Below are positions 6,432-44,077 of a DNA stretch of 64,000 nucleotides, in pieces. The first letter of the stretch is position 1; the number at the start of each line of letters is the position of its first letter. The notes below the pieces were generated by a model. The model was given only the letters and a program-made list of their open reading frames with translations, was not told the DNA's origin and did no database searches. The position numbers and the translations under genes are program-made. Source of the DNA: Gammaproteobacteria bacterium HGW-Gammaproteobacteria-1 (GTDB taxonomy: Bacteria; Pseudomonadota; Gammaproteobacteria; Thiohalomonadales; Thiohalomonadaceae); assembly GCA_002840095.1 (NCBI GenBank), contig PGZL01000004.1, positions 62,001 to 126,000 on the forward strand, read 5' to 3'.

Positions 6432-6902
6432 ATGGAACGTATTTGTTTTCGGACTTTTTCCCTCATCGCCTCATCCCTCTTCGCCCTTGGCCTTACCAAC
6501 ACCGCCCTTGCGGAGCACAAGACCGGTACTGAAACGGTCAAGCTTACGCAGGTCTACGCGGTTACGATGCCTGGCTCCCGGGATCCGTCCATGGACGGCG
6601 CGTGCAAGGAAAAGTACGGCAGTTACCTGGGACAGACGGTCACGTCGAAATACGACATCAACACCCAAACCCTGATCATGTTCGCGACTTCGAACGTGTT
6701 CGGAACCCCCGTCGAGCTGCATCCCCTGGGCCTGTCCACGTCCTACAGCTTCATGTCCGACGGCGTCCCCCAGGCCCTGGCCGACAAAGGTGTGTCGCGC
6801 GTCATCTTCTCGGTCAAGCTGGATTACTCGCAGCCCGAGAGTGACGTCATGGCAGACCTGAGTGACACCCACAACTGCGTGATGACCAACCTCAAGATGT
6901 AA
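6432..6902 (+). CDS. Secreted hypothetical protein
   Basis: 156 residues from ATG 6432, chosen over the earlier in-frame ATG at 6381 because AAAGGAGTGCAAC precedes it and a signal peptide starts there: MERICF, hydrophobic core to about residue 24, cleavage after TALA. The mature part is polar, with two cysteines (near residues 58 and 151) that could form a disulfide. No family was recognised. A decayed copy of its 3' end lies at 8288-8371, so it belongs to a duplicated islet. A hairpin terminator follows at 6923. Confidence 0.75.
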   Translation: MERICFRTFSLIASSLFALGLTNTALAEHKTGTETVKLTQVYAVTMPGSRDPSMDGACKEKYGSYLGQTVTSKYDINTQTLIMFATSNVFGTPVELHPLGLSTSYSFMSDGVPQALADKGVSRVIFSVKLDYSQPESDVMADLSDTHNCVMTNLKM

Positions 6903-6922
6903 GCATCGCGTAGGTCCCTGTG

Positions 6923-6955
6923 CGGCCGGAACATTTTTGTTCCGGCCGCAATTTC
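6923..6955 (+). terminator. Stem-loop after the secreted protein gene
   Basis: Perfect 12-bp stem GCGGCCGGAACA (6923-6934), TTTT loop, TGTTCCGGCCGC (6939-6950), then AATTT. The tail is weak, so termination may be partial. A degenerate copy of this hairpin follows the decayed gene copy near 8390-8412. Confidence 0.6.
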
Positions 6956-7002
6956 AAGAAGGAAAAGGAATGGGCAGGATTGCTGTATCAGGAGGTTGTG
7001 AC

Positions 7003-7224
7003 ATGGCGAAAATTTCACAGATCAAAGACAAGCAGGATGCAAAGCTGAAGGGTAAGTCCGATGAGCAAAAAGCCCTCGCTGCTGCTCGTCGCGCCATGGA
7101 AGAAATGCGTCAGAAACGCCACATCAAGGAGCCAGATCAATTGGCTTCGGGTAGGTCCGATGAAAACGGCAATATGGTAATTGAAGATGTGCCCCTCGAT
7201 GAAGAAAGATGTGCCCCTCGATGA
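7003..7224 (+). pseudogene. Small lysine/glutamate-rich protein, copy 1, frameshifted near its end
   Basis: Reads 73 residues from ATG 7003 (AGGAGGTTGTGAC upstream). It is a paralogue of the gene at 7455: both share the KIKEP/HIKEP(D/E)xLASGxxDENG segment and an acidic C-terminus. A 22-bp tandem duplication (GATGTGCCCCTCGATGAAGAAA twice, 7186-7229) shifts the frame, so the protein ends in the foreign tail ERCAPR. Removing one unit restores an acidic tail ending at TGA 7271-7273, which overlaps the next gene's start by 8 nt, just as in the intact pair. It may still be translated as a truncated protein. Function unknown. Confidence 0.7.
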
Positions 7225-7265
7225 AGAAATAGATATTGATGAGGAAGAATCCAGGGAGTCTAAAG

Positions 7266-7388
7266 ATGACTGAACCTCAAAAGCAAAAAATACTGTCGCC
7301 CGGAGAAAAATAGTATACGGTACTGCCCAACGAAGCCGGCCCTAAATTTTCGCCGTCTGCGATGACGGCGGTACTCAAGACAAATTGA
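7266..7388 (+). pseudogene. Copy 1 of the second small gene, interrupted by TAG
   Basis: ATG 7266 begins MTEPQKQK and would continue GEKxYTVLPNEAGPK, matching KEKQFTVLPNEADPK of the intact gene at 7663. An in-frame TAG at 7311-7313 stands where the intact copy has CAA (Q), a single C-to-T change from CAG. After about 25 more codons similarity fades and a TGA follows at 7386. Only a 15-residue peptide could be made without readthrough. Confidence 0.7.
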
Positions 7389-7454
7389 ATGGCAAAGAAG
7401 GTTAGAAAGCCAAGATAACTTCGGAATCAATAGCTGTATTCGGAGGATTATCTA

Positions 7455-7673
7455 ATGAGTAACGAAATTAAAGACTTTGATGCGGCGTACAATGAAAAGC
7501 TTAAGAAGCTTTCTAAAGAAGAGCGCGCTAAAGCCGGATTAAAGAAACTGTCCCAGGAGCTGGAAGCGGACAAAGATAAAATCAAAGAGCCTGAAGGGTT
7601 AGCCTCTGGTGCAACAGACGAAAATGGAAAAATGATCGTTGACTTAGATGAGGATTACGAAAATGACCGATAA
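7455..7673 (+). CDS. Small charged hypothetical protein, intact copy 2
   Basis: 72 residues, rich in Lys, Glu and Asp, with no cysteine and a predicted helical, coil-like N-terminal half (KLKKLSKEERAKAGLKKLSQ). GGAGGATTATCTA precedes ATG 7455. The segment KIKEPEGLASGATDENG is shared with the damaged copy at 7003. It overlaps the next gene by 11 nt, implying translational coupling. The region is clearly AT-richer than its neighbours, suggesting transfer. The pair resembles a two-gene module, but nothing in the sequence identifies a toxin or antitoxin fold. Confidence 0.65.
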   Translation: MSNEIKDFDAAYNEKLKKLSKEERAKAGLKKLSQELEADKDKIKEPEGLASGATDENGKMIVDLDEDYENDR

Positions 7674-7836
7674 GCCATTAACGGATAAGGAAAAGCAATT
7701 TACTGTTTTGCCAAATGAAGCGGACCCTAAAGCTGCGCGGGTAATAGCCTATCAGGCAGTACACAAAGCACTATCTCAAGTCAAAAAATACAAAGCGCGT
7801 CAAAATAAAGGGGGGCAATTAGCCAAGAATGCATAA
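7663..7836 (+). CDS. Small basic hypothetical protein, intact copy 2
   Basis: 57 residues from ATG 7663 (MTDKPLTDKEK). This start is preferred to the in-frame ATG at 7648 because the decayed paralogue also begins MT(D/E)... The sequence has a conserved core QFTVLPNEADPK followed by a helix AARVIAYQAVHKALSQVKKYKARQ and a strongly basic tail. Overlaps the preceding gene by 11 nt. No family recognised. Conservation of both the core and the overlap between the duplicate modules argues that the pair is a real unit. Confidence 0.65.
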   Translation: MTDKPLTDKEKQFTVLPNEADPKAARVIAYQAVHKALSQVKKYKARQNKGGQLAKNA

Positions 7837-7858
7837 CGTGTTTCAAGATGTCCTTCAC

Positions 7859-8260
7859 ATGAAGAGATTTCTGACTTTAATCGCCATATTGGCATTTGCT
7901 TCCGCCGTTTTTGCGGGCGGCGAAAGTCCGCATCTGTCAGAGAAAGATGTTCTGGGTGCATTGATGAAAAATCTCGATATTCAGTTAACTGATGCCGCTC
8001 ACTGCGAAGGCGTTGGAGTAGAGGTATCTGACCAGACTATCGGGGAATATCTCAGTGGTTTCTGGGCTTTTCATGCTAATGCCACAGGACGAAACTGGAT
8101 AGAAGTAACGGCAACAAAGATCGGCTCTGGCTGGTATCTGGCTAAGGTCATGATCTATCGTAAAGACGATGAGGAAAATTGGGGCTGGGGGGTGTCATTC
8201 GAGCTTGATGCTTCAAAACGTGTAAAAAGAGATAGCTTCACATGTCTTGGTGCCGGTTAG
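7859..8260 (+). CDS. Secreted hypothetical protein
   Basis: 133 residues from ATG 7859, with signal peptide MKRFLTLIAILAFASAVFA. An in-frame ATG at 7829 would put 10 residues before the signal and overlap the previous gene, so it is less likely. The mature protein is about 114 residues with cysteines near positions 52 and 130, a possible disulfide. AT-richer than the flanking genome, like the small genes before it. No family recognised; it ends the transferred-looking islet. Confidence 0.65.
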   Translation: MKRFLTLIAILAFASAVFAGGESPHLSEKDVLGALMKNLDIQLTDAAHCEGVGVEVSDQTIGEYLSGFWAFHANATGRNWIEVTATKIGSGWYLAKVMIYRKDDEENWGWGVSFELDASKRVKRDSFTCLGAG

Positions 8261-8287
8261 CCCCAGTATCATAAACAAATCGATCAG

Positions 8288-8400
8288 GCCGGATTGCTCG
8301 CATCCCGAGAATGACGTCATGGCGAACCTGAGCGAGCCCCATCACTGCGTGAGTCCAACTTCAAGATGTAAGCATCGCGTATGTCCTAGTGCGGCAGGGA
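8288..8400 (+). pseudogene. 3' remnant of a second copy of the 6432 secreted protein gene
   Basis: 8288-8371 matches the last ~84 bp of the gene at 6432-6902 (PENDVMANL against PESDVMADL), with a one-base deletion before the end, and the same ATGTAAGCATCGCGTA runs across the stop. Similarity continues about 30 bp past the stop. The 5' part of the gene is absent. Confidence 0.7.
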
Positions 8401-8477
8401 CGCTTCGTTCCGGCCGCGATTTCATCAGGAGCACGCATTGATAAGCAAATTATTGCGAAATAGGGAGATCCTCCGGA

Positions 8478-8629
8478 AGTCGTCGCGACGCTCTCGCCCG
8501 AGGGCGGGGAAGCTTCGCATTGATGCCTCAACGGTGTGTTATTACGCCCTCGCCCGGATTCGACCTCACCGGGCGCATCGGCCGCCTGAAACGGGCCGAT
8601 GGTAGCGCAGGGGCGGCGGGGGAGGGAAG
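8478..8629. repeat. ~155-bp direct repeat, left copy
   Basis: Nearly identical to 8983-9138; from CGCATTGA(T/C)GCCTCAACGG onward only a few mismatches are seen over ~120 bp. Together the copies flank a small minus-strand gene. No transposase and no long terminal inverted repeats were seen. The rest of 8401-8477 holds no recognisable feature. Confidence 0.85.
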
Positions 8630-30318: not shown

Positions 30319-30475
30319 CCTGCCGCAGAGACGCGGAGGCGCAGAGGGGATAGGTCAGTTCGAGGTCACCCGGTGACGTGGTGGACGCGGCTTATCCGCA
30401 AGGAATTCAATGCACCTGCCTTTGTACCTCTGCGTCTCCGCGCCTCTGCGCCACTCCTAGGTTTTGCTCAACGCC
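30319..30475. repeat. ~160-bp MITE-like element, copy 2
   Basis: Direct repeat of 30122-30280, separated by ~40 bp that end in AATTAAACTTTATCCAAA. Only scattered single-base differences (for example GACGTGGCGG/GACGTGGTGG). The right end touches the narL stop. Confidence 0.75.
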
Positions 30476-31115
30476 CCCGTCCGGTCACCGCCCACACCGC
30501 GGCCTCGACGCGGGAACGGAGGTTGAGCTTCTTCAGCAGGTGCTTGACGTGCACCTTGACCGTGCCTTCGGTGATGTCGAGCTGGCGGGCGATGTGCTTG
30601 TTGCTGAGTCCCTGGGCAACCAGTTCCAGGATTTGCCGCTCCCGGTCGGTGAGCCCGGCGGCATCCTCGTCGCGGGGGTGGGGTTCCTCGCACAGGGCAC
30701 GGGCCAGCAACTCGGTCAGGTTGTCGCTGATCACCAGGCGACCGGCGGCGGCCTGGCCCAGGCGTTCGAGGATATGCTCCGGCTCCATGTCCTTGAGCAG
30801 GTAGCCGTCGGCGCCGGCGCGCAGGGCGGCCACCACGTTTTCCTCGTTGTCGGACACCGTGAGCATGATGACGCGGGAATCGAGGTCGGCCTCCTTCAGG
30901 GCCTTCAGCGTTTCGATGCCGTCCATGCCCTTCATGTTGAGGTCGAGCAGGATCAGGTCCGGCCGCAGTTCCTGCGCCTTGACAAAGCCCTCCTCGCCGG
31001 AGGCCGCTTCGCCGATCAGCGTCAGGGTGGCGTCCATGGCGATGAGGTCGGCGACGCCCTTGCGGAACAGCGGGTGGTCGTCGATCACCAGCAGCGTGTT
31101 GGTGTTGTCTTTCAT
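30468..31115 (-). CDS. narL: Nitrate/nitrite response regulator NarL
   Basis: 215 residues. Receiver domain with DD at 12-13, phosphoacceptor D58 (LILLDLNMKG) and LLKDM; C-terminal LuxR-type helix-turn-helix (about 150-197, LTDRERQILELV...GTVKVHVKHLLKKL). Phosphorylated NarL binds TACYNMT heptamers. ATGA overlap with narX upstream shows a two-gene operon divergent from narK1. Likely controls the nar cluster to the right. Confidence 0.93.
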   Translation of the reverse strand: MKDNTNTLLVIDDHPLFRKGVADLIAMDATLTLIGEAASGEEGFVKAQELRPDLILLDLNMKGMDGIETLKALKEADLDSRVIMLTVSDNEENVVAALRAGADGYLLKDMEPEHILERLGQAAAGRLVISDNLTELLARALCEEPHPRDEDAAGLTDRERQILELVAQGLSNKHIARQLDITEGTVKVHVKHLLKKLNLRSRVEAAVWAVTGRGR

Positions 31116-33079
31116 AGGGGGCTTCCTCCGTTCTGCGCGATGGACTGCGGCATGGTGCGGTGTATGGGGGTGAACACGGTTCTGACGCAGGTGCCGCCCC
31201 CGGCCCGTCGGGTGACGGCAATGTTGCCGCCCAGGCTGTGGGTGCGTTCGTTCATGATGGCGAGGCCGTAGTGGTGACGGCGTTCCGCCTCGTCGGGAAT
31301 GCCGATGCCGTCGTCCTCGATGGTGACCACCACGTCGCCGTTGGCCTCGTAGTCCAGGGTGACGCAGGCCTGGCTGGCCTGGGCGTGGCGCACCACGTTG
31401 GACAGCGCCTCGCGCACCACCTGCAACACGTGGATTTCCTCGTTGGGCGTGAGCTGGGTGGAGTGCAGCCGGTTGACCAGGGCGACGGTGAGCGCGCTGC
31501 GTTCGCGCAGCTCGCGCACCGTCTCCTCCAACGCCGAGCTGAGGCCGCGGCCGTCCATCTTGAGGCGGAAGGTGGTGAGCAGTTCGCGCAGTTCGCGGTA
31601 GGCGCTGTTAATGCCGTCGCGCAATTCCTGCAGGATGGCGTGGGCCTGCGCCTCGTCCTCGGTGCGGGGCAGCGCCGCCGCCAGCCGGCTGACCTGAATC
31701 TTCATATAGGACAGGGACTGGGCCAGGGAGTCGTGCAGTTCGCGGGCAATGACGCTGCGTTCCTCCAGCAGGGCCAGGCGCCGGCTCTGGGTGGTGCGCT
31801 GCGCGATGTTGATGGCGATGCCGATGTGGTCGGCCACCGCTTCCAGCAGGCGGGTCTGCCAGTCCTGCAACTCGGCGTCGTGGGGGATCTCCATCAGCAG
31901 GACGCCATACTGTTGCTCCTGATCGGTGATGGGGATGGAGATGACGTGCAGCGCAGGCTGTGCCCCGCGGGTGATTTCGACGACGTGGGTGCGGCCGTCG
32001 TCGAAGCAGGCGTTGCAGTTGGCCGGATGGCACAGGTCGGTATCGCCGGGCGGCGGCGTGCGGGTGCTGGCCAGCTTGATCGCATGGTTCTTGTTGTAGC
32101 CGGCCAGGCAGATGGTGCCGGGGCCGACGCCGATGACGTTTTCCATCTTGCCCAGCAGCTGGGTATAGGTGGCGTCCACCAGCGGCGCTTCGTTGAGCCA
32201 GCGGGTGGTGTTGTAGAGCAGTTCGAGGGAGCGGTTGCTGCGTGCCAGATCGGCGGTCTTCTGCTGCACCCGCGCCTCCAGATCGGCGTATATCTTGGAC
32301 AGATCTTCCGCCATCACGTTGAAGGCGTGGCTCAGGTTGCCCAGTTCGTCGTCGTTGACCGGATGGGTGCGCACAGAGAAGTCGCCGCCGCGGGCGGCCT
32401 CGGCGCAGGCCAGCAGGTTGCGCAGCGGCACCACCACGTCGGTGTGCATCAGGTACATGGTCACGAACACCACGCCGACGGTGAGGAACAGCGACGATAC
32501 CTGGATCAGGCGCAGCAGCTGGATATTGGATTCGGCCTCGATCTCCAGCAGATGCACCAGGTGATCGATGTCGGCCACAAAGGCGTCGACGATGTTGAGG
32601 TAGCGCTGCTTGAGCGCCAGGTGCGCCGTTTCGAGCTGCTCCGCATAGTGGCTGTCGCTGCCTTGAATGGCCGATTGATCGTTGACGACGGTGTTGATGT
32701 AGGCGAACAGCACCGGGCGGATGCTGCGTTTCCATTGCCCATATATGTGGTCGTAAACCTGGCGCGATTCCTTGCTGCCGCTGAGTGGAATCATGCTGGT
32801 GAGGCGCGGACTGAGGATGCGCTCCTCGAACTCCTCCATCAGGTCGGTGGTGATGCGGGTGGCGTCGAGATTGTCGAGGTTCTGGCGCCGCGCCAGGCTG
32901 GAGGCGATGCGGTAGGACTGCATGCGCAGCGAGCCGGCCTGGTTGATGGCGGCAGCTGCGCCCTGCGTGGTCTCGGCGATGATCACGGAGCTGAGCATGC
33001 CCATGAAGGCGAGCGCCGTGATGGTCGCCATCGCCAGCCCCATGCGCAACAACAGCGATTTCTCAAAAACCTGCTTCAT
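31112..33079 (-). CDS. narX: Nitrate/nitrite sensor histidine kinase NarX
   Basis: 655 residues. TM1 (about 11-35) is followed by the periplasmic nitrate-binding P-box INQAGSLRMQSYRIAS at 45-60, TM2 (about 190-212), a HAMP domain, and a GAF-like central region with a cysteine cluster (CHPANCNACFDDG) as in NarX. The HisKA_3 domain has ELHDSLAQSLSYMKIQ, and an HPK7-type ATPase domain ends the protein. Signals nitrate to NarL. Start ATG 33079 lies ~300 bp from narK1, sharing a control region. Confidence 0.94.
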   Translation of the reverse strand: MKQVFEKSLLLRMGLAMATITALAFMGMLSSVIIAETTQGAAAAINQAGSLRMQSYRIASSLARRQNLDNLDATRITTDLMEEFEERILSPRLTSMIPLSGSKESRQVYDHIYGQWKRSIRPVLFAYINTVVNDQSAIQGSDSHYAEQLETAHLALKQRYLNIVDAFVADIDHLVHLLEIEAESNIQLLRLIQVSSLFLTVGVVFVTMYLMHTDVVVPLRNLLACAEAARGGDFSVRTHPVNDDELGNLSHAFNVMAEDLSKIYADLEARVQQKTADLARSNRSLELLYNTTRWLNEAPLVDATYTQLLGKMENVIGVGPGTICLAGYNKNHAIKLASTRTPPPGDTDLCHPANCNACFDDGRTHVVEITRGAQPALHVISIPITDQEQQYGVLLMEIPHDAELQDWQTRLLEAVADHIGIAINIAQRTTQSRRLALLEERSVIARELHDSLAQSLSYMKIQVSRLAAALPRTEDEAQAHAILQELRDGINSAYRELRELLTTFRLKMDGRGLSSALEETVRELRERSALTVALVNRLHSTQLTPNEEIHVLQVVREALSNVVRHAQASQACVTLDYEANGDVVVTIEDDGIGIPDEAERRHHYGLAIMNERTHSLGGNIAVTRRAGGGTCVRTVFTPIHRTMPQSIAQNGGSPL

Positions 33080-33375: not shown

Positions 33376-34635
33376 ATGACGAAAAAGATCACAGGGGAGC
33401 AGATACGCGCAGTGGCGCTGAACACGATTGCCTTCACCGTGTGTTTCGCGGTGTGGACCATGTTCTCGGTCATCGGCGTGCCGCTCAAGCAGCAACTGGG
33501 GCTTAACGACGCGGAGTTCGGTCTCCTCGTCGCCATGCCGATCCTGACCGGCTCCCTGATGCGCCTGCCGCTGGGGATGCTCACCGACAAGGTGGGCGGG
33601 CGCATCGTCTTCTTCGCCCTGATGGCCTTCACCATCGTACCCATCTGGCTGGTTTCCGAACTGGACCATTACTGGTCCCTGCTGCTGTGCGGTTTCGTGG
33701 TCGGCGTGGCCGGATCGTCCTTCTCGGTGGGCATCGCCGCGACGGCGCGCTGGTTCAGCAAGAAGAACCAGGGCTTCGCCATGGGCATCTTCGGCGCCGG
33801 CAACGCCGGTGCGGCGGTGACCAAGTTCGTGGCGCCGAGCCTGGTGGTCGGCTTCGGCTGGACCATGGTGCCCAAGGTATATGCCGTGGCGATGCTGGTG
33901 ATGGTGGTCGCCTACTGGGTGCTGATGCCGCGCGAGCCGCACCACCACAAGGTCGGCAAGCACGTGACCTTTGCCGATCAGGTCAAGGCCCTCAAGGACC
34001 CGCGGGTGTGGAAGTACTGCCAGTACTACTCGCTGGTGTTCGGCGGTTACGTCGGCGTGTCCCTGTGGATGACCAAGTACTACGTCAGCGAGTACGGCCT
34101 CGGCCTGCAGTACGCCGCGCTGATGGCGGCAATCTTCGTGCTGCCCTCGGGCGTGATCCGCGCCGCCGGCGGCTGGCTGGCGGACCGGTTCGGCGCGCAC
34201 ACCGTGACCTGGTGGGTGATGTGGACCACGCTGATCTGCCTGTTCTACATGGCCTACCCGCCGACCACCATTTCCATCAAGACCATCGCCGGCGACCCGC
34301 TGGTGTTCACCGTCGGCGGCAACATGTGGATGTTTACCATCGCACTGTTCGTGATGGGCATCGCCTGGGGCTTCGGCAAGGCCTCGGTCTTCAAATACAT
34401 CTCCGACGAGTATCCGGACAACATCGGCGTGGTCTCGGGCATCGTCGGTCTCATCGGCGGCATGGGCGGATTCCTGCTGCCGATCATGTTCGGCGTCCTG
34501 GTCGACATTTTCCATTTCAACAGCGTCATCTGGATGCTCGTGTTCGGCGTCACCGGCGTGTCCCTGATCTGGATGTGGTGGACCGAGCGCAAACCGATGG
34601 CCGCCGGCCTGCGCACGGCCGAGGTCATGGAATAA
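33376..34635 (+). CDS. narK1: NarK1-type nitrate transporter (MFS)
   Basis: 419 residues from ATG 33376; upstream frame ignored because homologues start near MTKKITGEQ. Twelve membrane segments; the nitrate-signature regions are represented by GVAGSSFSVGIAATARWFS and GIVGLIGGMGGFLLP. The short N-terminus and length fit NarK1, considered a nitrate/proton symporter, in contrast to the NarK2-type protein next to it. First gene of the nitrate cluster. Confidence 0.9.
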   Translation: MTKKITGEQIRAVALNTIAFTVCFAVWTMFSVIGVPLKQQLGLNDAEFGLLVAMPILTGSLMRLPLGMLTDKVGGRIVFFALMAFTIVPIWLVSELDHYWSLLLCGFVVGVAGSSFSVGIAATARWFSKKNQGFAMGIFGAGNAGAAVTKFVAPSLVVGFGWTMVPKVYAVAMLVMVVAYWVLMPREPHHHKVGKHVTFADQVKALKDPRVWKYCQYYSLVFGGYVGVSLWMTKYYVSEYGLGLQYAALMAAIFVLPSGVIRAAGGWLADRFGAHTVTWWVMWTTLICLFYMAYPPTTISIKTIAGDPLVFTVGGNMWMFTIALFVMGIAWGFGKASVFKYISDEYPDNIGVVSGIVGLIGGMGGFLLPIMFGVLVDIFHFNSVIWMLVFGVTGVSLIWMWWTERKPMAAGLRTAEVME

Positions 34636-34683: not shown

Positions 34684-36291
34684 ATGGCCGCTGATATCAA
34701 AGAATGGGACGTTGAAGACAAGACGTTCTGGGACAAGACCGGAAAGCGCGTAGCCAACCGTAACCTGTGGATTTCCGTGCCGAGCCTGCTGTGCGGCTTC
34801 GCGGTGTGGCTGTACTGGGGCATCATCACGGTGCAGATGCTCAACCTCGGCTTTCCCTTCAAGCCGGCCGAGCTGTTCACCCTGGCAGCCATCGCCGGCC
34901 TGACCGGCGCCACCCTGCGCATACCGTCGAGCTTCTTCATCCGCATTGCCGGCGGCCGCAACACCATCTTCTTCACCACCGCGCTGTTGATGATTCCGGC
35001 CATCGGTACCGGCATCGCCCTGCAGGACAAGAACACGCCGCTGATCGTGTTCCAGCTGCTGGCCTTTCTGTCCGGCTTCGGCGGCGGCAACTTCGCCTCC
35101 TCCATGTCCAACATCAGCTTCTTCTTTCCGAAGCGGATGCAGGGACTGGCGCTGGGCCTGAACGCAGGCCTGGGCAACGCCGGCGTCACCACCATGCAGA
35201 TCCTCATTCCGCTGGCCATGACCTCCGCCATCTTCGGCGGCGACCCGATGATCCTGGCCAACACCTCGGGCACGCTGATCGGCAAGATCCCGGCCGGTTC
35301 CGAGACCTGGATCCACAACGCCGGCTACGTGTGGCTGCTGTTCCTGGTACCGCTGGCCTTCGCCGGCTGGTTCGGCATGAGCAACATCCGCACCGAGGAC
35401 GTGTCGCCCAACATCGGCTCGCCCGTGGGCGCCATGGGCAAAATCGCCGGCATGCTGCTGATCGGCTTCATCACCGCCGCCGCCGGTCTCTACATCATCC
35501 TGCCGCAGCCCACCGGGCTGGGCGCGCCGGGCTGGGCCAAGTGGCCGGTCATCGTCGGCATCCTCTTCGCCACCGTGATGCTGATGAAGATGATTCCGGG
35601 CGACATCAAGCCCAACCTTCAGCGTCAGTTCAAGATCTTCGGCAACAAGCACACCTGGGTGATGAGCGTCATCTACACCATGACCTTCGGCAGCTTCATC
35701 GGTTATTCCGCCGCCTTCGCCCTGGCCATCAAGATCATCTTCGGCTTCAGCCACATCGAGGTGGATGGCGTGTTGACGCACACCACCGTCAATCCCAATG
35801 GCCCGTCGGCCCTGATGTACGCCTGGATGGGCCCCTTCATCGGCGCCTTCATCCGTCCGGTGGGCGGCTGGATTGCCGACAAGATCGGCGGCGCCAAGGT
35901 GACCCAGATCATCACCGTCATCATGGTCGGCAGCGCGCTGGGCGTGGCCTATTTCATGAAGGCCGCCTATGCCTCCGCCACGCCGGAAACCTACTTCGTG
36001 CCCTTCTTCATCCTGTTCCTGGTGCTGTTCGCCGGTACCGGCATCGGCAACGGCTCCACCTTCCGCACCATCGCCATGGTGTTCCCCAAGGAACAGGCCG
36101 GCCCGGTGCTGGGCTGGACCTCGGCGGTGGCGGCCTACGGCGCGTTCATCATCCCGCAGGTATTCGGCGAGCAGATCAAGGCCACCACGCCCGAGTATGC
36201 GCTGTACGGCTTCGCCGTGTTCTACGGCATCTGCCTGGTGCTCAACTGGTGGTACTACCTCGGCCCCAAGGCGGAGTTCAAGAATCCGTAA
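34684..36291 (+). CDS. narK2: NarK2-type nitrate/nitrite antiporter (MFS)
   Basis: 535 residues with signature GFGGGNFASSMSNISFFFP near 136-154 and a second nitrate signature region in GTGIGNGSTFRTIAMVFP near 455. Longer central loops than the NarK1 type, as in nitrate/nitrite exchangers. It exchanges incoming nitrate for outgoing nitrite formed by NarGHI. Lies 48 bp after narK1 with GAGGAGACGGC before ATG. The narK1-narK2 tandem is a known arrangement in denitrifiers. Confidence 0.93.
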   Translation: MAADIKEWDVEDKTFWDKTGKRVANRNLWISVPSLLCGFAVWLYWGIITVQMLNLGFPFKPAELFTLAAIAGLTGATLRIPSSFFIRIAGGRNTIFFTTALLMIPAIGTGIALQDKNTPLIVFQLLAFLSGFGGGNFASSMSNISFFFPKRMQGLALGLNAGLGNAGVTTMQILIPLAMTSAIFGGDPMILANTSGTLIGKIPAGSETWIHNAGYVWLLFLVPLAFAGWFGMSNIRTEDVSPNIGSPVGAMGKIAGMLLIGFITAAAGLYIILPQPTGLGAPGWAKWPVIVGILFATVMLMKMIPGDIKPNLQRQFKIFGNKHTWVMSVIYTMTFGSFIGYSAAFALAIKIIFGFSHIEVDGVLTHTTVNPNGPSALMYAWMGPFIGAFIRPVGGWIADKIGGAKVTQIITVIMVGSALGVAYFMKAAYASATPETYFVPFFILFLVLFAGTGIGNGSTFRTIAMVFPKEQAGPVLGWTSAVAAYGAFIIPQVFGEQIKATTPEYALYGFAVFYGICLVLNWWYYLGPKAEFKNP

Positions 36292-36428: not shown

Positions 36429-39400
36429 ATGAGCCATTTTTTGGACCGCTTGAAGTTCTTTACCAAGGTGCAGGCCGACTTTTCCGACGGTCACGGCATC
36501 GTCACCAATGAAGACCGCCACTGGGAAGATGCCTACCGCAACCGCTGGCGCCACGACAAGGTGGTGCGTTCCACCCATGGCGTGAACTGCACCGGCGGCT
36601 GCTCCTGGAAGATCTTCGTCAAGAACGGCCTGGTCGCCTATGAGATGCAGCAGACCGACTATCCCGAGACGCGCCCCGATCTGCCCAATCACGAGCCGCG
36701 CGGCTGCCAGCGCGGCGCCAGCTTCTCCTGGTATCTGTACAGCCCGCACCGCATCCGCCACCCGCTGGTGCGCGGCCGCCTGGTCGAGCTGTACCGCGCC
36801 GAGCGCAAGTCCGGCAAGGACCCGGTGGAGGCGTGGGCGGCGATCCAGCAGGATCCCGACAAGCGCAAGAAATACACCGCGGTGCGCGGCCTGGGCGGCT
36901 TCGTGCGCACCAGCTGGGACGAGGTGACGGAGATCGTCGCCGCGGCCAACGTCTACACCATCAAGAAATACGGCCCGGATCGCATCTTCGGCTTCTCGCC
37001 CATCCCGGCGATGTCGATGATCTCCTACGCCGCCGGTTCCCGTTACCTGTCCCTCATCGGCGGCGCCTGCGGTTCCTTCTACGACTGGTACTGCGATCTG
37101 CCGGTATCCAGCCCGCAGGTGTGGGGCGAGCAGACCGACGTGCCGGAATCGGCCGACTGGTACAACTCCACCTACATCATCGTCTGCGGCTCCTCCATTC
37201 CCACCACCCGCACCCCCGACGCCCACTTCTACAGCGAGGTGCGCTACAAGGGCGCCAAGGTGGTGGCGATGTCGCCGGACTACGCCGAGCAGGTGAAGTT
37301 CGCCGACCTGTGGATGCAGGTGAAGCAGGGCACCGACGCCGCGGCCTTCATGGCCATGGGCCACGTGGCGATCAAGGAATTCTATCTGCAGAAGCAGGAC
37401 CCGTACTTCGACGAGTACGCGCGCAAGTACACCGACCTGCCGATGCTGGTGATCCTCGACGAGTACGAGGACGGCTACACCCCGGGCCGCTATCTGCGCG
37501 CCTCCGACTTCAACGGCAACATGGGCGAGGCCAACAACCCGGAATGGAAGACCGTCGTCTATGACGAAGCCTCCCAGGCCTACGTGGTGCCCAACGGTTC
37601 CGTCGGTTTCCGCTGGGGCGAAGAGGGCAAGTGGAACCTGCTGCAGAAGAACGCCGCCACCCAGGCCGACATCAAGGCCGAGCTGAGCTGTCTCGAAGGC
37701 GGCGACGGTGTGGTGTCGGTGGCCTTCGCGCACTACGCCGAAGGCGAGGACGGCATGCTGTCCCGCAACGTGCCCATGCGCAAGCTGACCCTGGCCGACG
37801 GCCGCCAGGTCCACGTCGCTTCGGTGTTCGATCTGATGGTGGCGCAATACGGCATCGACCGCGGTCTCGGCGGCGGCAACGTGGCCACCTCCTACGACGA
37901 TGAGGCGGTGGCCTACACCCCGGCGTGGCAGGAAAAGATCACCGGCGTGAAGCGTGCCGACATCATCCGTACCGGCCGCGAGTTCGCCGACAACGCCTCC
38001 AAGACCCGTGGCAAGTCCATGGTGATCCTGGGCGCGGCGATCAATCACTGGTACCACAACGACATGAATTACCGCTCGATCATGAACCTGCTGCACCTGT
38101 GCGGCTGCGTAGGTCAGTCGGGCGGCGGCTGGGCGCACTACGTCGGCCAGGAGAAGCTGCGGCCACAGGCCGGCTGGGCGCCCATCGCCTTCGCCACCGA
38201 CTGGAACCGTCCGCCGCGCCACATGACCAGCACCACCTACTGGTACTTCCACACCGGCCAGTGGCGCTACGAAACCATCAAGGCCGACGAGCTGATGGCG
38301 CCCAACGCCAAGGCCAAGTACCGCGGCTACACCTGCGCCGACTACAACGTGGTGGCGCAGCGCCTGGGCTGGCTGCCCTCGGCGCCGCACTTCAACAAGA
38401 ACCCTCTCGACATCGTCGCCGAGGCTACCCAGGCCGGCGCCACCGACGAGGCCGGCATCGCCAAACACATGGTGGACCAGCTCAAGAGCGGCGAGTTGTC
38501 CTTCGCCTACGAGGACATCGACAATCCCAACAACTGGGTGCGCAACCTCATCGTCTGGCGCGGCAACCTCATCGGCTGCTCCTCCAAGGGCCATGAGTAT
38601 TTCCTCAAGCACCTGTTCGGCGCGCAGAACGGCGTCATGCAGGAAGGCACCGCCGGCAAGGACTCGCAGGAGATCAAGTGGGTGGAGCAGGGGCCGACGG
38701 CCAAGCTGGACCTGATGGTGGACATCAATTTCCGCCTCAACTCCACCGGTGCCTACTCCGACATCGTCCTGCCCACCGCCACCTGGTACGAAAAGAACGA
38801 CATCAACACCACGGACATGCACCCGTTCATCCACCCGCTGTCCGAGGCGGTGAAGCCGGGCTGGGAGTCCAAGTCCGACTGGAAGATCTTCCAGACCATC
38901 GCCAAGCGCTTCTCCGAGCTGGCCGCGACCCACCTGGGCACGCGCAAGGACGTGGTCGCCCTGCCCATGCAGCACGACTCGCCCTTCGCCCTGGCCCAGC
39001 CCATGGGCGAGGTGAAGGACTGGAAGCGCGGCGAGTGCGAGCCGGTGCCGGGCAAGACCCTGCCCCTGCTCAAGGTGGTGGAGCGCGACTACCACAACAC
39101 CTGGAACAAGTTCATCGCCCTCGGTCCCCTGATGCAGAAGCTGGGCAACAACATCAAGGGCGTGGACTGGAACACCGACGACGAGTACGAGCATCTCAAG
39201 CACCACAACGGCACGGTGCGCGCCGAAGGCATCAGCTTCGGCATGCCCTCGCTGGAAGACGATATCCATGCTTGCGACGCGGTGATGCGCATGGCGCCGG
39301 AAACCTGCGGCGAGGTGGCGCACAAGGCCTGGAAGGCGATGGGCAGGAAGACCGGCATCGACCACAACCATCTGTGCGACTCGCGCCGCGACGAAATCAT

Positions 39401-40184
39401 CACCTTCAAGGACATCGTGGCCCAGCCGCGCAAGATCATCACTGCGCCCACCTGGTCCGGCATCGAGTCCCACGAGGTGAGCTACAACGCCGGCTACACC
39501 AACATCCACGAGCACATCCCGTTCCGCACCCTGACCGGACGTGCCCACTTCTATCTCGACCATGAGTGGATCCGTGACTTCGGCGAAAGCTTCTGTGTCT
39601 ACAAGCCGCCATTGGACATGAAGTCGCACTACAACATGCCGGCCAAGGTGACCGGCAAGCCGCACCTGGTGCTGAACTGGATCACGCCGCACTCCAAGTG
39701 GGGCATCCACTCCACCTACCAGGACAACCTGCGCATGCTGACGCTGTTCCGCGGCGGCCCCTATGTGTGGATCGCCGAAGACGACGCCAAGTCAGTGGGC
39801 CTGAGGGACAACGACTGGGTCGAGGCCCTCAACGCCAATGGCGCCACGGTGGCGCGTGCGGTGGTGAGCCAGCGCGTGCCGCGCGGCATGGCCATCATGT
39901 ACCACGCCCAGGAGAAGAACGTGAACGTGCCCGGCAGCCCGACCACCGGCAAGCGCGGCGGCATCCTCAACAGCGTGACGCGTACGGTGATCAAGCCAAC
40001 CCACATGATCGGCGGCTACGCCCAGCTGTCCTACGCCTTCAACTACATGGGTCCGGTGGGCAGCAACCGCGACGAGTACGTGGTGCTGCACAAGATCGAG
40101 GATCGCGACGTCGACTGGCTGGAGCGTCCGCTCACGCCGGAGCGCGAGGCCAACATCAATCCCCCGGGCGTAGGCCCGCGCTAA
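36429..40184 (+). CDS. narG: Respiratory nitrate reductase alpha subunit NarG
   Basis: 1251 residues (E. coli 1247). The catalytic molybdo-bis-MGD subunit, cytoplasmic face. The FS0 [4Fe-4S] ligands H50, C54, C58 and C93 align residue for residue with E. coli. The Mo-coordinating aspartate is D223 in YCDLPVSSPQVWGEQTDVPE. No twin-arginine leader, so cytoplasmic orientation. ATG 36429 follows TTTAGGAGAATCGCG. Reduces nitrate to nitrite with electrons from NarI via NarH. Confidence 0.97.
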   Translation: MSHFLDRLKFFTKVQADFSDGHGIVTNEDRHWEDAYRNRWRHDKVVRSTHGVNCTGGCSWKIFVKNGLVAYEMQQTDYPETRPDLPNHEPRGCQRGASFSWYLYSPHRIRHPLVRGRLVELYRAERKSGKDPVEAWAAIQQDPDKRKKYTAVRGLGGFVRTSWDEVTEIVAAANVYTIKKYGPDRIFGFSPIPAMSMISYAAGSRYLSLIGGACGSFYDWYCDLPVSSPQVWGEQTDVPESADWYNSTYIIVCGSSIPTTRTPDAHFYSEVRYKGAKVVAMSPDYAEQVKFADLWMQVKQGTDAAAFMAMGHVAIKEFYLQKQDPYFDEYARKYTDLPMLVILDEYEDGYTPGRYLRASDFNGNMGEANNPEWKTVVYDEASQAYVVPNGSVGFRWGEEGKWNLLQKNAATQADIKAELSCLEGGDGVVSVAFAHYAEGEDGMLSRNVPMRKLTLADGRQVHVASVFDLMVAQYGIDRGLGGGNVATSYDDEAVAYTPAWQEKITGVKRADIIRTGREFADNASKTRGKSMVILGAAINHWYHNDMNYRSIMNLLHLCGCVGQSGGGWAHYVGQEKLRPQAGWAPIAFATDWNRPPRHMTSTTYWYFHTGQWRYETIKADELMAPNAKAKYRGYTCADYNVVAQRLGWLPSAPHFNKNPLDIVAEATQAGATDEAGIAKHMVDQLKSGELSFAYEDIDNPNNWVRNLIVWRGNLIGCSSKGHEYFLKHLFGAQNGVMQEGTAGKDSQEIKWVEQGPTAKLDLMVDINFRLNSTGAYSDIVLPTATWYEKNDINTTDMHPFIHPLSEAVKPGWESKSDWKIFQTIAKRFSELAATHLGTRKDVVALPMQHDSPFALAQPMGEVKDWKRGECEPVPGKTLPLLKVVERDYHNTWNKFIALGPLMQKLGNNIKGVDWNTDDEYEHLKHHNGTVRAEGISFGMPSLEDDIHACDAVMRMAPETCGEVAHKAWKAMGRKTGIDHNHLCDSRRDEIITFKDIVAQPRKIITAPTWSGIESHEVSYNAGYTNIHEHIPFRTLTGRAHFYLDHEWIRDFGESFCVYKPPLDMKSHYNMPAKVTGKPHLVLNWITPHSKWGIHSTYQDNLRMLTLFRGGPYVWIAEDDAKSVGLRDNDWVEALNANGATVARAVVSQRVPRGMAIMYHAQEKNVNVPGSPTTGKRGGILNSVTRTVIKPTHMIGGYAQLSYAFNYMGPVGSNRDEYVVLHKIEDRDVDWLERPLTPEREANINPPGVGPR

Positions 40185-40220: not shown

Positions 40221-41774
40221 ATGAAAGTACGCGCACAATTCGCCCTGGTGTTCAATCTGGACAAGTGCATCGGCTGCCACACCTGCTCGGTGACCTGCAA
40301 GAACGTGTGGACCAACCGCAAGGGCATGGAATACGCCTGGTGGAACAACGTCGAGAGCAAGCCCGGCATCGGCTTTCCCAAGCAGTGGGAGAACCAGGAC
40401 AAGTGGAAGGGCGGCTGGAAGGTCGAGAACGGCAAGCTGGAGCTGAAGGGAGGCGGCCGCGCCTCCAAGCTGCTCAACATCTTCGCCAACCCGGACATGC
40501 CGGAGATCGACGACTACTACGAGCCGTTCACCTACAACTACGCCCATCTGCAAAGCGCCAAGCTGTCCGAGGCGGCGCCCACCGCCCGGCCGCTGTCGCA
40601 GATCACCGGCGAGACCATGGACAAGATCACCTGGGGCCCCAACTGGGAGGATCACCTGGCCGGTGAGTTCGCGGCGCGCGCCGTGGACAAGAACTTCGAT
40701 GGCATCCAGAAGCAGATGTATTCGGAGTTCAAGAACACCTTCCAGACCTACCTGCCGCGCATGTGCAACCACTGCCTCAACCCGGCCTGCGTGGCGGCCT
40801 GCCCGTCGGGCTCGCTGTACAAGCGCGAGGAAGACGGCATCGTGCTGGTGGACCAGGACAAGTGCCGCAGCTGGCGCATGTGCGTGTCGGCCTGCCCGTA
40901 CAAGAAGATCTTCTACAACTGGGAGTCGGGCAAGGCGGAGAAGTGCATCGGCTGCTACCCGCGCGTGGAGTCGGGCATGCCGACGCTGTGTTCCGAGTCC
41001 TGTGTCGGCCGCATCCGCTACAACGGCGTGATGCTGTACGACGCCGACAGGATCGCCGAGTACGCCGCCACCCCCAACGACAAGGACATGTACCAGGCGC
41101 AGATGAACATCTTCCTCGATCCCAACGATCCGGAAGTCGTCGCCGCCGCCCGCGAGGAAGGCATCCCCGAGAGCTGGATCGAGGCGGCGCAGAAGTCGCC
41201 CATCTGGAAGATGGCCATGGAGTGGAAGATCGCCCTGCCCATGCATCCGGAGTTCCGCACCCTGCCCATGGTCTGGTACGTGCCGCCGCTGTCGCCGGTG
41301 CAGTCGCAGATCGATCAGGGCAACCTGCCCACCGGGCCGGACGGCGCCATTCCGCTGCGTGAGGCCATGCGTACCCCGGTGCGTTATCTCGCCAACCTGC
41401 TCACCGCAGGCGACGAGCAGCCGGTGATCGAGGCGCTCAACAAGCTCATCGCCATGCGCAGCTACCAGCGCTCGGTGCACGTGGAAGGCAAGGCCGAAAT
41501 GGCCGCGCTGGACGCCGTCGGTCTCAGCGAGGAGCAGGCCAAGGACATGTACAAGCTGCTGGCCATCGCCGACTACGCCGACCGCTTCGTCATTCCCACC
41601 AACCACGGCGAAACGCGCATGGAAGACCCCTACGGCTTCCAGGGGCAGAACGGCTTCACCTTCGGCAACGACAGCTCCACCGGCATCAGCCTGGTGTCGC
41701 TGTTCCCCGAACGCCGCAAGGAAACCGCCGAGCCCAAGACGCAGCCGGAAACGGCCGACAAGCCCTACTTCTAG
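40221..41774 (+). CDS. narH: Respiratory nitrate reductase beta subunit NarH
   Basis: 517 residues. Ferredoxin-type Cys clusters: CIGCHTCSVTCKN near 15-27, CNHCLNPACVAACPSG near 184-199, CRSWRMCVSACPYKK near 215-230 (Trp in place of one Cys, the expected [3Fe-4S] site) and CIGCYPRVESG near 243. Passes electrons from NarI haems to NarG. 36 bp from narG, with GAGATCGGGAGACAAAC before ATG. Confidence 0.97.
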   Translation: MKVRAQFALVFNLDKCIGCHTCSVTCKNVWTNRKGMEYAWWNNVESKPGIGFPKQWENQDKWKGGWKVENGKLELKGGGRASKLLNIFANPDMPEIDDYYEPFTYNYAHLQSAKLSEAAPTARPLSQITGETMDKITWGPNWEDHLAGEFAARAVDKNFDGIQKQMYSEFKNTFQTYLPRMCNHCLNPACVAACPSGSLYKREEDGIVLVDQDKCRSWRMCVSACPYKKIFYNWESGKAEKCIGCYPRVESGMPTLCSESCVGRIRYNGVMLYDADRIAEYAATPNDKDMYQAQMNIFLDPNDPEVVAAAREEGIPESWIEAAQKSPIWKMAMEWKIALPMHPEFRTLPMVWYVPPLSPVQSQIDQGNLPTGPDGAIPLREAMRTPVRYLANLLTAGDEQPVIEALNKLIAMRSYQRSVHVEGKAEMAALDAVGLSEEQAKDMYKLLAIADYADRFVIPTNHGETRMEDPYGFQGQNGFTFGNDSSTGISLVSLFPERRKETAEPKTQPETADKPYF

Positions 41775-41784
41775 GAGATACGCC

Positions 41785-42300
41785 ATGCGAGTCTACAAAC
41801 TGCTGTCTTATCTGCTCGACTATCCGGGCGAGGAGCTGCACGACAACATGGCCGCCCTGCGCGCCCTGGCTGCCGAAGCGGCCGGCGACGGGGAGGAGCG
41901 GGCGGCGCTGGACGGCTTTCTCGACTACGTCGCCGGCGTCGACGCCCTGGAGCTGCAACGCCAGTACGTCGAAACCTTCGACCTCAAGGCCCAGCACAGC
42001 CTGCACCTCACCCATCACCTGCTCGGCGACGACAAGAACCGCGGCCCGGCGCTCATCGATCTCGGTGAGTACTACAAGGCTTGGGGCATGGAGACCATCG
42101 ACGGCGAACTGCCGGACTATCTGCCCCTGATGTTCGAGTTCGCCGCCACGCTGGAAGAGGAGGAGGCGCGCATGTTCCTGTCGCAGATCGGCAAGGTGCT
42201 GACCATTCTCGCCGGCAATCTGGAGCAGGGCGCGAGCCCGTGGGCGCCGCTGGTGCGCGTCGGCGAACGGCGCGCGCTGCTGGTGCGCGAGGCCGCCTGA
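41785..42300 (+). CDS. narJ: Nitrate reductase assembly chaperone NarJ
   Basis: 171 residues, noticeably shorter than E. coli NarJ (236). The chaperone core is present: YKLLSYLLDYPGEEL at 4-18, FDLKAQHSLHLTHHLLGD near 69-86 and LPDYLPLMFEFAA near 109-121. The truncation is at the C-terminus, after an ordinary stop codon, with narI 47 bp on. It binds apo-NarG during molybdenum cofactor insertion and is not part of the final enzyme. Start 10 bp after narH, with TAGGAGATACGCC. Confidence 0.93.
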   Translation: MRVYKLLSYLLDYPGEELHDNMAALRALAAEAAGDGEERAALDGFLDYVAGVDALELQRQYVETFDLKAQHSLHLTHHLLGDDKNRGPALIDLGEYYKAWGMETIDGELPDYLPLMFEFAATLEEEEARMFLSQIGKVLTILAGNLEQGASPWAPLVRVGERRALLVREAA

Positions 42301-42347
42301 ATCCAACGTACTAAGGGCCGCCCGTGCGGCGGCCAGAGGAGAACAAC

Positions 42348-43049
42348 ATGGATTACCTGAATACCCTGGCGTTCGCCGTGTACCCCTACCTGGCGGGGGC
42401 GGTGTTTCTCATCGGCAGCTGGGCCCGCTTCGACAGCGAGCAGTACACCTGGAAGGCGGACTCCAGCCAGCTCATGTCCAACAGGAACATGCGCCTGGCC
42501 AGCAACCTGTTCCACATCGGCATCATCGGCATCTTCCTCGGTCACCTGGTCGGCCTGCTGATGCCGTTCGCGTTCTGGCACATGATCGAACTGAGCAGCC
42601 TGGGCAAGCAGTACATCGCCATGTACGGCGGCGGCTTCCTCGGCATCCTGTGCCTGATCGGCGGCGTGATGCTGTGGTGGCGCCGCGTCACCCATCCGCG
42701 CGTGCGCGCGGCGGGGCGCAGCTCGGACCTGTTCATCCTCAGCTGGATCCTGGTCACCCTGCTGTTCGGCCTGGCCACCACCTTCACCACCGCGCACCAC
42801 GCTTCCCAGGGCAGCGCCGACACCATGATGACCCTGGCGCAGTGGGCCAAGAGCATCGTGCTGTTCCATCCGCAGCCGGAGCTGGTGGCCAAGACCGAGC
42901 TGGTGTTCCGCCTGCACCTGTTCTTCGGCATGTCGCTGTTCCTGCTGTTCCCCTTCACCCGTCTGGTACACATCTGGAGCCTGCCGCTGGGATACCTCGG
43001 CCGCGCCTACCAAATCGTGCGCACCAAGCGCCGGGTGATGGTGCGCTGA
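42348..43049 (+). CDS. narI: Respiratory nitrate reductase gamma subunit NarI
   Basis: 233 residues from ATG 42348 (AGAGGAGAACAAC before it). Five membrane helices. Haem-ligand histidines are expected in NLFHIGIIGIFLGHLVG (near 54-68) and RLHLFFGMSLFLLFPFTRLVHIWS (near 188-211). Oxidises quinol at the periplasmic side and anchors NarGH. An in-frame ATG at 42324 would lie within the intergenic ribosome-binding region and is not preferred. Confidence 0.96.
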   Translation: MDYLNTLAFAVYPYLAGAVFLIGSWARFDSEQYTWKADSSQLMSNRNMRLASNLFHIGIIGIFLGHLVGLLMPFAFWHMIELSSLGKQYIAMYGGGFLGILCLIGGVMLWWRRVTHPRVRAAGRSSDLFILSWILVTLLFGLATTFTTAHHASQGSADTMMTLAQWAKSIVLFHPQPELVAKTELVFRLHLFFGMSLFLLFPFTRLVHIWSLPLGYLGRAYQIVRTKRRVMVR

Positions 43050-43165: not shown

Positions 43166-43221
43166 ACTGATTCTTTCCTCTGCGTTCCCGGCGTCTCGGC
43201 GGTGAATTGAAATTTTGGCAG

Positions 43222-43677
43222 ATGAACGACTCCACACACACCCATGCATTGCCGCGGCCTTCCGGCCGCGGCCTGGTGCGCAAGCTGGGCTGGCTCGTGC
43301 TGGTGACGGCGGTAGGTATCGGCGTGCACTTTTCCCTGCAGGGGATCATCCAGAGCGGCGATGCGGAGAAGCGTGCGGGGCCGGACCTGCACAAGCTGGA
43401 GCAGCTGGAGGCCGTCGACCCCGCACGCGCGGCGAAGGTGCGCGCCGGCATGCTCAAGTACGAGTCCATCTGCCGTCTGTGCCACCACCGCAGCGGTATC
43501 GGCGGCAAGTTCACGCCGCCCATCGCCGGCAAGACCGAAGAGGGTGTGCAAACCCTGCTCAAGCTGTACCGCAGCGGCGTGCAGATGGGACCGCTGACCA
43601 ACCTGATGGCGCCCTGGGCGGCGGAACTGTCCGACGAGGACATCGGCAACCTGGCCGCCTATGTCGCGACCCTGTGA
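43222..43677 (+). CDS. Membrane-anchored monohaem cytochrome c
   Basis: 151 residues from ATG 43222; a TTG at 43207 is possible but lacks support. One N-terminal membrane anchor (about 24-45, KLGWLVLVTAVGIGVHFSL) is followed by a periplasmic domain with a single CxxCH (CRLCHH, near 91-96). A C-terminal methionine (NLMAPWAAELSDED) is a plausible sixth ligand, and the LSDEDIGNLAAYVATL ending is typical of class I cytochromes c. Placed between narI and the DsrC-like gene; an electron-transfer role with nitrate respiration is inference. Confidence 0.83.
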   Translation: MNDSTHTHALPRPSGRGLVRKLGWLVLVTAVGIGVHFSLQGIIQSGDAEKRAGPDLHKLEQLEAVDPARAAKVRAGMLKYESICRLCHHRSGIGGKFTPPIAGKTEEGVQTLLKLYRSGVQMGPLTNLMAPWAAELSDEDIGNLAAYVATL

Positions 43678-43702: not shown

Positions 43703-44077
43703 ATGACGACGATGCAGACCAATCCCTTTGCAATCCGTACCGAATACGTCGACGTGGACGGCAAGCCCGTCGCCACCGATCAGGAAGGCTACATCCAGGA
43801 CATGAGCCAATGGTCGGAGGGCTTCGCCCGCGCCCAGGCCGCCAAGGAAGGGCTGGAGCTGACCTCCGAACACTGGGACGTCATCCACTACATCCGCGCC
43901 CACTACGAAAAGCACAGCGTCCAGGCCCAGGTGCGCGACATGATCAAGCACTTCGCCAAGACCTGGGGCCCGGAGCACGGCAACAACCGTCATCTGCACG
44001 ACATCTTTCCCAAGGGCGGCCCGCAAAAACAGGGCAACCGCCTGGCCGGCGTCCGCCGTACCAAGGGGGAGCACTGA
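43703..44077 (+). CDS. DsrC/TusE-fold protein without the signature cysteines
   Basis: 124 residues from ATG 43703. The fold signature is clear: WSEGFARAQAAKEGLELTSEHWDVI, then HYEKHSVQAQVRDMIKHF and the C-terminal arm GPEHGNNRHLHDIFPKGGPQKQGNRLAGVRR. In DsrC the arm has two reactive cysteines (QGC and the penultimate C) and TusE keeps the last one. Here the first is Asn and the end reads TKGEH; the protein has no cysteine at all. It cannot carry sulfur by the known mechanism. Members lacking cysteines are classed as regulatory-type DsrC relatives. Last gene of the nar cluster, 25 bp after the cytochrome gene. Confidence 0.87.
   Translation: MTTMQTNPFAIRTEYVDVDGKPVATDQEGYIQDMSQWSEGFARAQAAKEGLELTSEHWDVIHYIRAHYEKHSVQAQVRDMIKHFAKTWGPEHGNNRHLHDIFPKGGPQKQGNRLAGVRRTKGEH

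Follow-up and report, generated by a model that had tools for sequence, protein, structure and literature searches.

DsrC has been understood entirely through its cysteines. A functional DsrC carries a penultimate cysteine (CysA) and a second one 11 residues before it (CysB), and in A. vinosum the working pair is Cys100 and the penultimate Cys111 (PMC3397948). TusE, which acts in the tRNA 2-thiouridine sulfur relay, uses a penultimate cysteine as sulfur acceptor. Cysteine-free DsrC members may have been named in earlier literature; no description of a nar-linked one was found in the open-access literature searched, a set outside which the 2014 DsrC review falls, so prior naming is possible. 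The protein described here belongs to a branch, termed GEH after its C-terminal tail, which keeps the DsrC arm without these cysteines. The window analyzed is a stretch of 64,000 nucleotides from Gammaproteobacteria bacterium HGW-Gammaproteobacteria-1, and the GEH gene is the last of a one-strand series of narK1, narK2, narG, narH, narJ, narI, a cytochrome c gene and the GEH gene. The features of the locus are as follows.

33376..34635, + strand: narK-type nitrate/nitrite transporter 1 (profile match)
34684..36291, + strand: narK-type nitrate/nitrite transporter 2 (profile match)
36429..40184, + strand: narG (open reading frame; NarG 75-81% identical in related nar loci)
40221..41774, + strand: narH (profile matches)
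41785..42300, + strand: narJ (profile matches)
42324..43049, + strand: narI (profile matches; true start probably slightly downstream)
43207..43677, + strand: mono-haem c-type cytochrome (CRLCH) with a membrane anchor, lying after narI and before the GEH gene; its start codon is uncertain
43703..44077, + strand: GEH-type DsrC paralogue, 124 aa, no cysteine (translated frame and family profiles)
44006..44074, + strand: C-terminal arm FPKGGPQKQGNRLAGVRRTKGEH, residues 102-124, conserved (an alignment of 42 homologues shows no variation at 15 of its 23 positions)
44036-44038, + strand: Asn112, which aligns with CysB of DsrC (A. vinosum Cys100)
44069..44074, + strand: Glu123-His124; Glu123 (44069-44071) at the position of DsrC CysA (Cys111), His124 C-terminal

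The same cytochrome c was also found at L009, L010, L029, L031 and L050. A putative NarL-like response regulator and NarX-like sensor kinase are encoded 5' of the nar operon on the minus strand (30468-33079).

By profile cut-offs and fold, the GEH protein belongs to the DsrC/TusE structural family. It matched PF04358 (DsrC) at 3.9e-32 and 111.3 bits (curated cut-off 24.9) and TIGR03342 at 96.2 bits (cut-off 53.5), while its 93.1 bits against the TusE equivalog NF008562 lie far below the cut-off of 191. The AlphaFold model was confident (pLDDT 90.6) with the final residues disordered, and a Foldseek search with this model returned A. vinosum DsrC at 3.5e-10, the top matches all being DsrC. Key positions were set by alignment with A. 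vinosum DsrC (PDB 1YX3): the DsrC cysteine pair is absent, with N112 and E123 in its place at an unchanged spacing of 11 residues, and the TusE acceptor cysteine is likewise absent, E123 occupying that position. Translation from the alternative in-frame ATG at 43661 would bring in one cysteine (MSRPCDPQ..) outside the DsrC domain; initiation at 43703 or slightly downstream is favoured, as homologues begin at or just before MxTNPxA, and AAGG was found 5' of 43703. An earlier note on this DNA had described a cysteine-free DsrC-like protein in a nitrate reductase operon, with Asn and Glu/His replacing the cysteines and with fold and arm length conserved, and the reading frame, neighbouring genes, alignment and model all agree with that description.

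In order to establish the distribution of this protein, GTDB genomes were scanned, yielding 43 GEH-type loci (L009-L051) after other DsrC proteins (L052-L058) and a fragment (L059) were left out. Together with a second survey, which shares some genomes with the first (L082/L039, L100/L030), 60 distinct GEH sequences were obtained. The arm GGPQKQGNR.AG.....GEH was essentially invariant among them, the invariance of GGPQKQGNR being partly conditioned by its use in searching; the GEH tail was part of no search pattern and was found in 59 of the 60, the exception being GEV (L089). None of the 60 has an arm cysteine. In the 42-sequence alignment the arm was the most conserved region of the protein, and H99 and N112 are invariant in GEH proteins. 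A sequencing error or frameshift hiding cysteines, which the earlier note had named as a way its claim could fail, is ruled out, since the 93% identical protein of L009 and 58 further distinct homologues also lack arm cysteines and the same substitutions recur in dozens of genomes. The earlier observation is correct and stronger than first stated. Pairwise dN/dS was 0.04-0.11 (only seven pairs had finite dS), and selection on the gene, which the earlier note had supposed, is strongly purifying as judged from these comparisons.

According to the tree, GEH sequences form one clade (support 99/95) separate from other DsrC paralogues, and most nar-linked members group together within it (89/95). 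The window protein carries the signature of this clade, namely the GEH-type arm without an arm cysteine. A profile search of 21 genomes gave a bimodal distribution, with GEH proteins at 206 bits and all others at 118 or below, and intermediates with an arm cysteine were not found among genomes with both nar and dsr. The GEH pattern was absent from IMG/VR contigs, and a viral auxiliary gene was rejected on this ground. Seven GEH proteins encoded away from nar (L044, L046, L085, L086, L089, L093, L098) share a conserved N-terminal extension, about 95 residues long (..MKxTxEPLKRTPV..TDRxG..), for which a weak model predicts beta strands and a Pfam scan gave no match.

Gene contexts of the 43 loci fell into several groups. 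At 27, narGHJI adjoins the GEH gene, with narI or narG directly adjacent and GEH mostly the last gene; at four, the neighbours are assimilatory clusters (NasA-like, NirB or nitrate-transport genes); at one (L025), a PP2C/kinase gene, similar to a gene in a nitrate-assimilation cluster (compare L044); at one (L035), the dsr cluster itself; and ten lie elsewhere. Among the 21 carriers of the second sample, narGHJI was beside the GEH gene in eight and nirB/nasA-type genes in six. In L035 dsrN and the GEH gene share one uninterrupted reading frame, which is flanked by a dsrP-like and a dsrR-like gene; genes for siroheme synthase and NarL follow. In the complete genome G596 the GEH gene starts 3 bases after dsrN, with dsrA about 11 kb away. 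Both dsr clusters with a GEH gene are of betaproteobacterial type, and the two dsrN-GEH junctions, in frame or 3 bases apart, are found at L035:6549-8336 and L107 (reverse complement 6636-8584). Several assimilatory-type clusters with NirB and NasA-like proteins (L030, L039/L082, L084, L096, L097, L100) also encode a fused iron-sulfur/DmsC-like membrane protein, which suggests that NasA may be quinol-linked there.

To examine co-occurrence, 369 genomes of the class of the window were analyzed, 21 of which contained the GEH arm pattern. dsrA was present in 20 of these carriers, compared to 118 of the 369 genomes overall. The remaining carrier, G186, gave no dsrA match; its genome is 81% complete and contains nirB, and its congener G045 is dsrA-positive. 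For narH the corresponding values were 10/21 and 61/369. Among narH-positive genomes the GEH gene was present in 10 of the 29 that also have dsrA and in none of the 32 that lack it (Fisher 2e-4, the real significance being lower owing to kinship). Among dsrA-positive genomes, 20 of the 84 that have narH or nirB carried it, compared to none of the 34 that have neither (Fisher 8e-4, likewise overstated by kinship), so that narH or nirB was present in all 20 dsrA-positive carriers. Twelve of those 34 have only the periplasmic NapA, and the absence of the GEH gene from all 12 is not significant alone compared to 20/84. Siroheme NirB as a universal partner was rejected, as four narH-positive carriers lack nirB (G014, G084, G208, G334). 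Nineteen of the 29 genomes with both dsrA and narH have no GEH gene, so neither pathway requires the protein. Outside the class, a search of about 260 further genomes from the phylum did not reveal the arm pattern; apart from the window, this phylum-wide sample had just two carriers, each dsrA-positive and belonging to the class of the window.

The GEH gene thus tracks dsrA more tightly than nar, and its role extends beyond nitrate respiration. The earlier note had tied the protein to nitrate respiration and looked to nar genes in related genomes for confirmation; co-occurrence and recurrent linkage with nar were indeed found, and this picture is partly right but too narrow, given that the gene is also located in nirB-nasA and dsr clusters and follows dsrA more closely.

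The Thiothrix loci provide a further constraint on the partner. Here the GEH gene sits between narK2 and narG, with only a few bases separating it from narG in L019 (8369/8375). In the Thiothrix-type loci (L019-L024, L049), two types of narGHJI occupy one place, 3' of narK1-narK2-GEH. The GEH proteins are 92-98% identical in most pairs, whereas the NarGs that follow fall into two types with just 58-59% identity between them; narGHJI appears, from these sequences, to have been swapped in place behind a retained GEH gene. A tie to one NarG type was rejected on this basis. Because two narGHJI sets follow near-identical GEH copies, a particular NarG is probably not the partner, and the NarGHI-specific docking considered for the protein becomes less likely.

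Taken together, the dependence on dsrA, the dsr-cluster cases and Thiothrix make a sulfur-pathway partner, or a regulator shared between the two pathways, more likely than a fixed Nar subunit. The protein probably connects or adjusts sulfur oxidation and nitrate reduction rather than carrying sulfur. Our preferred reading, offered tentatively, is that it is a non-redox mimic of DsrC that docks at DsrC sites and adjusts sulfur oxidation during cytoplasmic nitrate reduction. It would have lost the sulfur chemistry of DsrC, keeping the body and mobile arm with a new tip (N112 ... G-E-H), and would be made together with the cytoplasmic nitrate reductase in reverse-Dsr sulfur oxidisers. Its arm may then enter a putative DsrC-docking site, candidates being DsrAB, DsrEFH and DsrMK, and the docked protein might slow, shield or redirect sulfur oxidation, with cytoplasmic nitrate, together with its reduction product nitrite, as the presumed trigger. 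The observed basis of this reading comprises the lost cysteines, fold, arm conservation, purifying selection, clade, contexts and co-occurrence; the existence of orphan GEH locations counts against it. NarG and NasA both put nitrite into the cytoplasm, which under this hypothesis would account for NapA-only genomes without the GEH gene. Direct inhibition of DsrAB by nitrite is general knowledge from sulfate reducers. One study bearing on this point describes nitrite toxicity only and no direct DsrAB inhibition (PMC5701242). The Riftia symbiont expresses several copies of DsrC, not necessarily of GEH type, and their levels peak in the same cell fraction as those of NarGHI (PMC7787665).

A somewhat unlikely alternative is a small transcription factor for nar, nas or dsr, which would act through the helical, winged-helix-like part of the DsrC fold, with the arm serving as a sensor or contacting a partner. 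The gene lies beside or inside candidate target operons in three contexts, Foldseek gave faint matches to the winged helix of LexA (E values of 2 or worse), and a putative DsrC role in transcription regulation has been proposed earlier (cited in PMC7787665); however, the LexA matches are not significant, the flexible arm rather than a recognition helix is most conserved, and the proteins have almost no net charge or a negative one (pI 5.0-8.2).

Direct adjacency to narI or narG at the 27 loci, the few bases before narG in Thiothrix L019 and the NasA-type enzymes adjacent elsewhere would also fit an accessory, assembly or electron-transfer partner of Nar/Nas, the arm reaching into the molybdenum or iron-sulfur subunit. 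This is unlikely in view of the nearly identical Thiothrix proteins preceding divergent NarG types, the dsr clusters away from nar, and the absence of the gene from all 32 narH-positive genomes without dsrA, which is unlike a general nitrate-reductase factor.

It is improbable that the Glu-His tip has its own chemistry, such as metal, haem, siroheme or nitrite/NO binding: disordered tips make poor isolated ligand sites and one member ends in GEV, against which stand the invariance of G122 and E123 and near-invariance of H124 in a tail not used for searching, the invariant H99 and N112, and the proximity of dsrN, dsrR-like and siroheme-synthase genes in L035. A decaying or hitch-hiking functionless dsrC copy is hardly credible despite the loss of both catalytic cysteines, since the low dN/dS of the seven computable pairs rules out a pseudogene, the arm is invariant, and the gene recurs in gamma- and betaproteobacterial lineages in several operon contexts.

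The genome of the window has eight DsrC-family genes, including a true two-cysteine DsrC near dsrA (L001), so the GEH protein is no replacement for DsrC. KGGY-type paralogues are cysteine-free like GEH but differ in tip and occupy their own tree branch; that of the same genome (L003) lies about 2.3 kb from dsrA. Members of this type, with an RRKGGY tail, are located at L101:8508-8846 (own genome), L129, L132, L133, L136 and L137, recurring a few kb from dsrA. The WSTG type, on a separate branch from GEH, has an altered tip and keeps only the CysB-position cysteine; it occurs in the nar slot at G247 and G226 (nar-slot loci including L140 and L141) and beside nirB at G057 and G194. Non-GEH DsrC paralogues take the nar slot in G247, G226 and G062. 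LysR-type regulator genes were observed beside DsrC paralogues of various types (L102:5603-6937; L086; L089). With KGGY near dsrA and WSTG near nar or nirB, altered-tip DsrC paralogues recur beside particular operons. It is conceivable, if doubtful, that redox-dead paralogues form a set of dedicated adaptors in sulfur oxidisers, each with an invariant tip and operon, of which GEH would gate or couple siroheme sulfur oxidation against cytoplasmic nitrate reduction.

A conserved GEH branch that retains the arm without its cysteines, and that tracks dsr as well as nitrate reduction in the cytoplasm, suggests that the arm serves in protein-protein contacts or in regulation, and the gene offers a concrete handle on the coupling of sulfur oxidation to nitrate in sulfur-driven denitrifiers (Thiothrix, Thiobacillus, animal symbionts). 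Compared to TusE, the GEH type shares family and fold, but has Glu at the penultimate cysteine that TusE needs and scores 93 bits where the equivalog requires 191; the database name 'sulfur relay protein' is likely wrong for this branch. The closest likeness is to DsrC of the reverse-Dsr pathway, in fold (1YX3, TM 0.78-0.86), family HMM, arm length, the 11-residue spacing, the disordered arm tip and presence in Dsr sulfur oxidisers. In contrast to DsrC, the GEH type has N and E for the arm cysteines, the GGPQKQGNR and GEH signatures and one extra Gly before the arm, and it is encoded in nar/nas loci, with the true DsrC elsewhere in the same genome.
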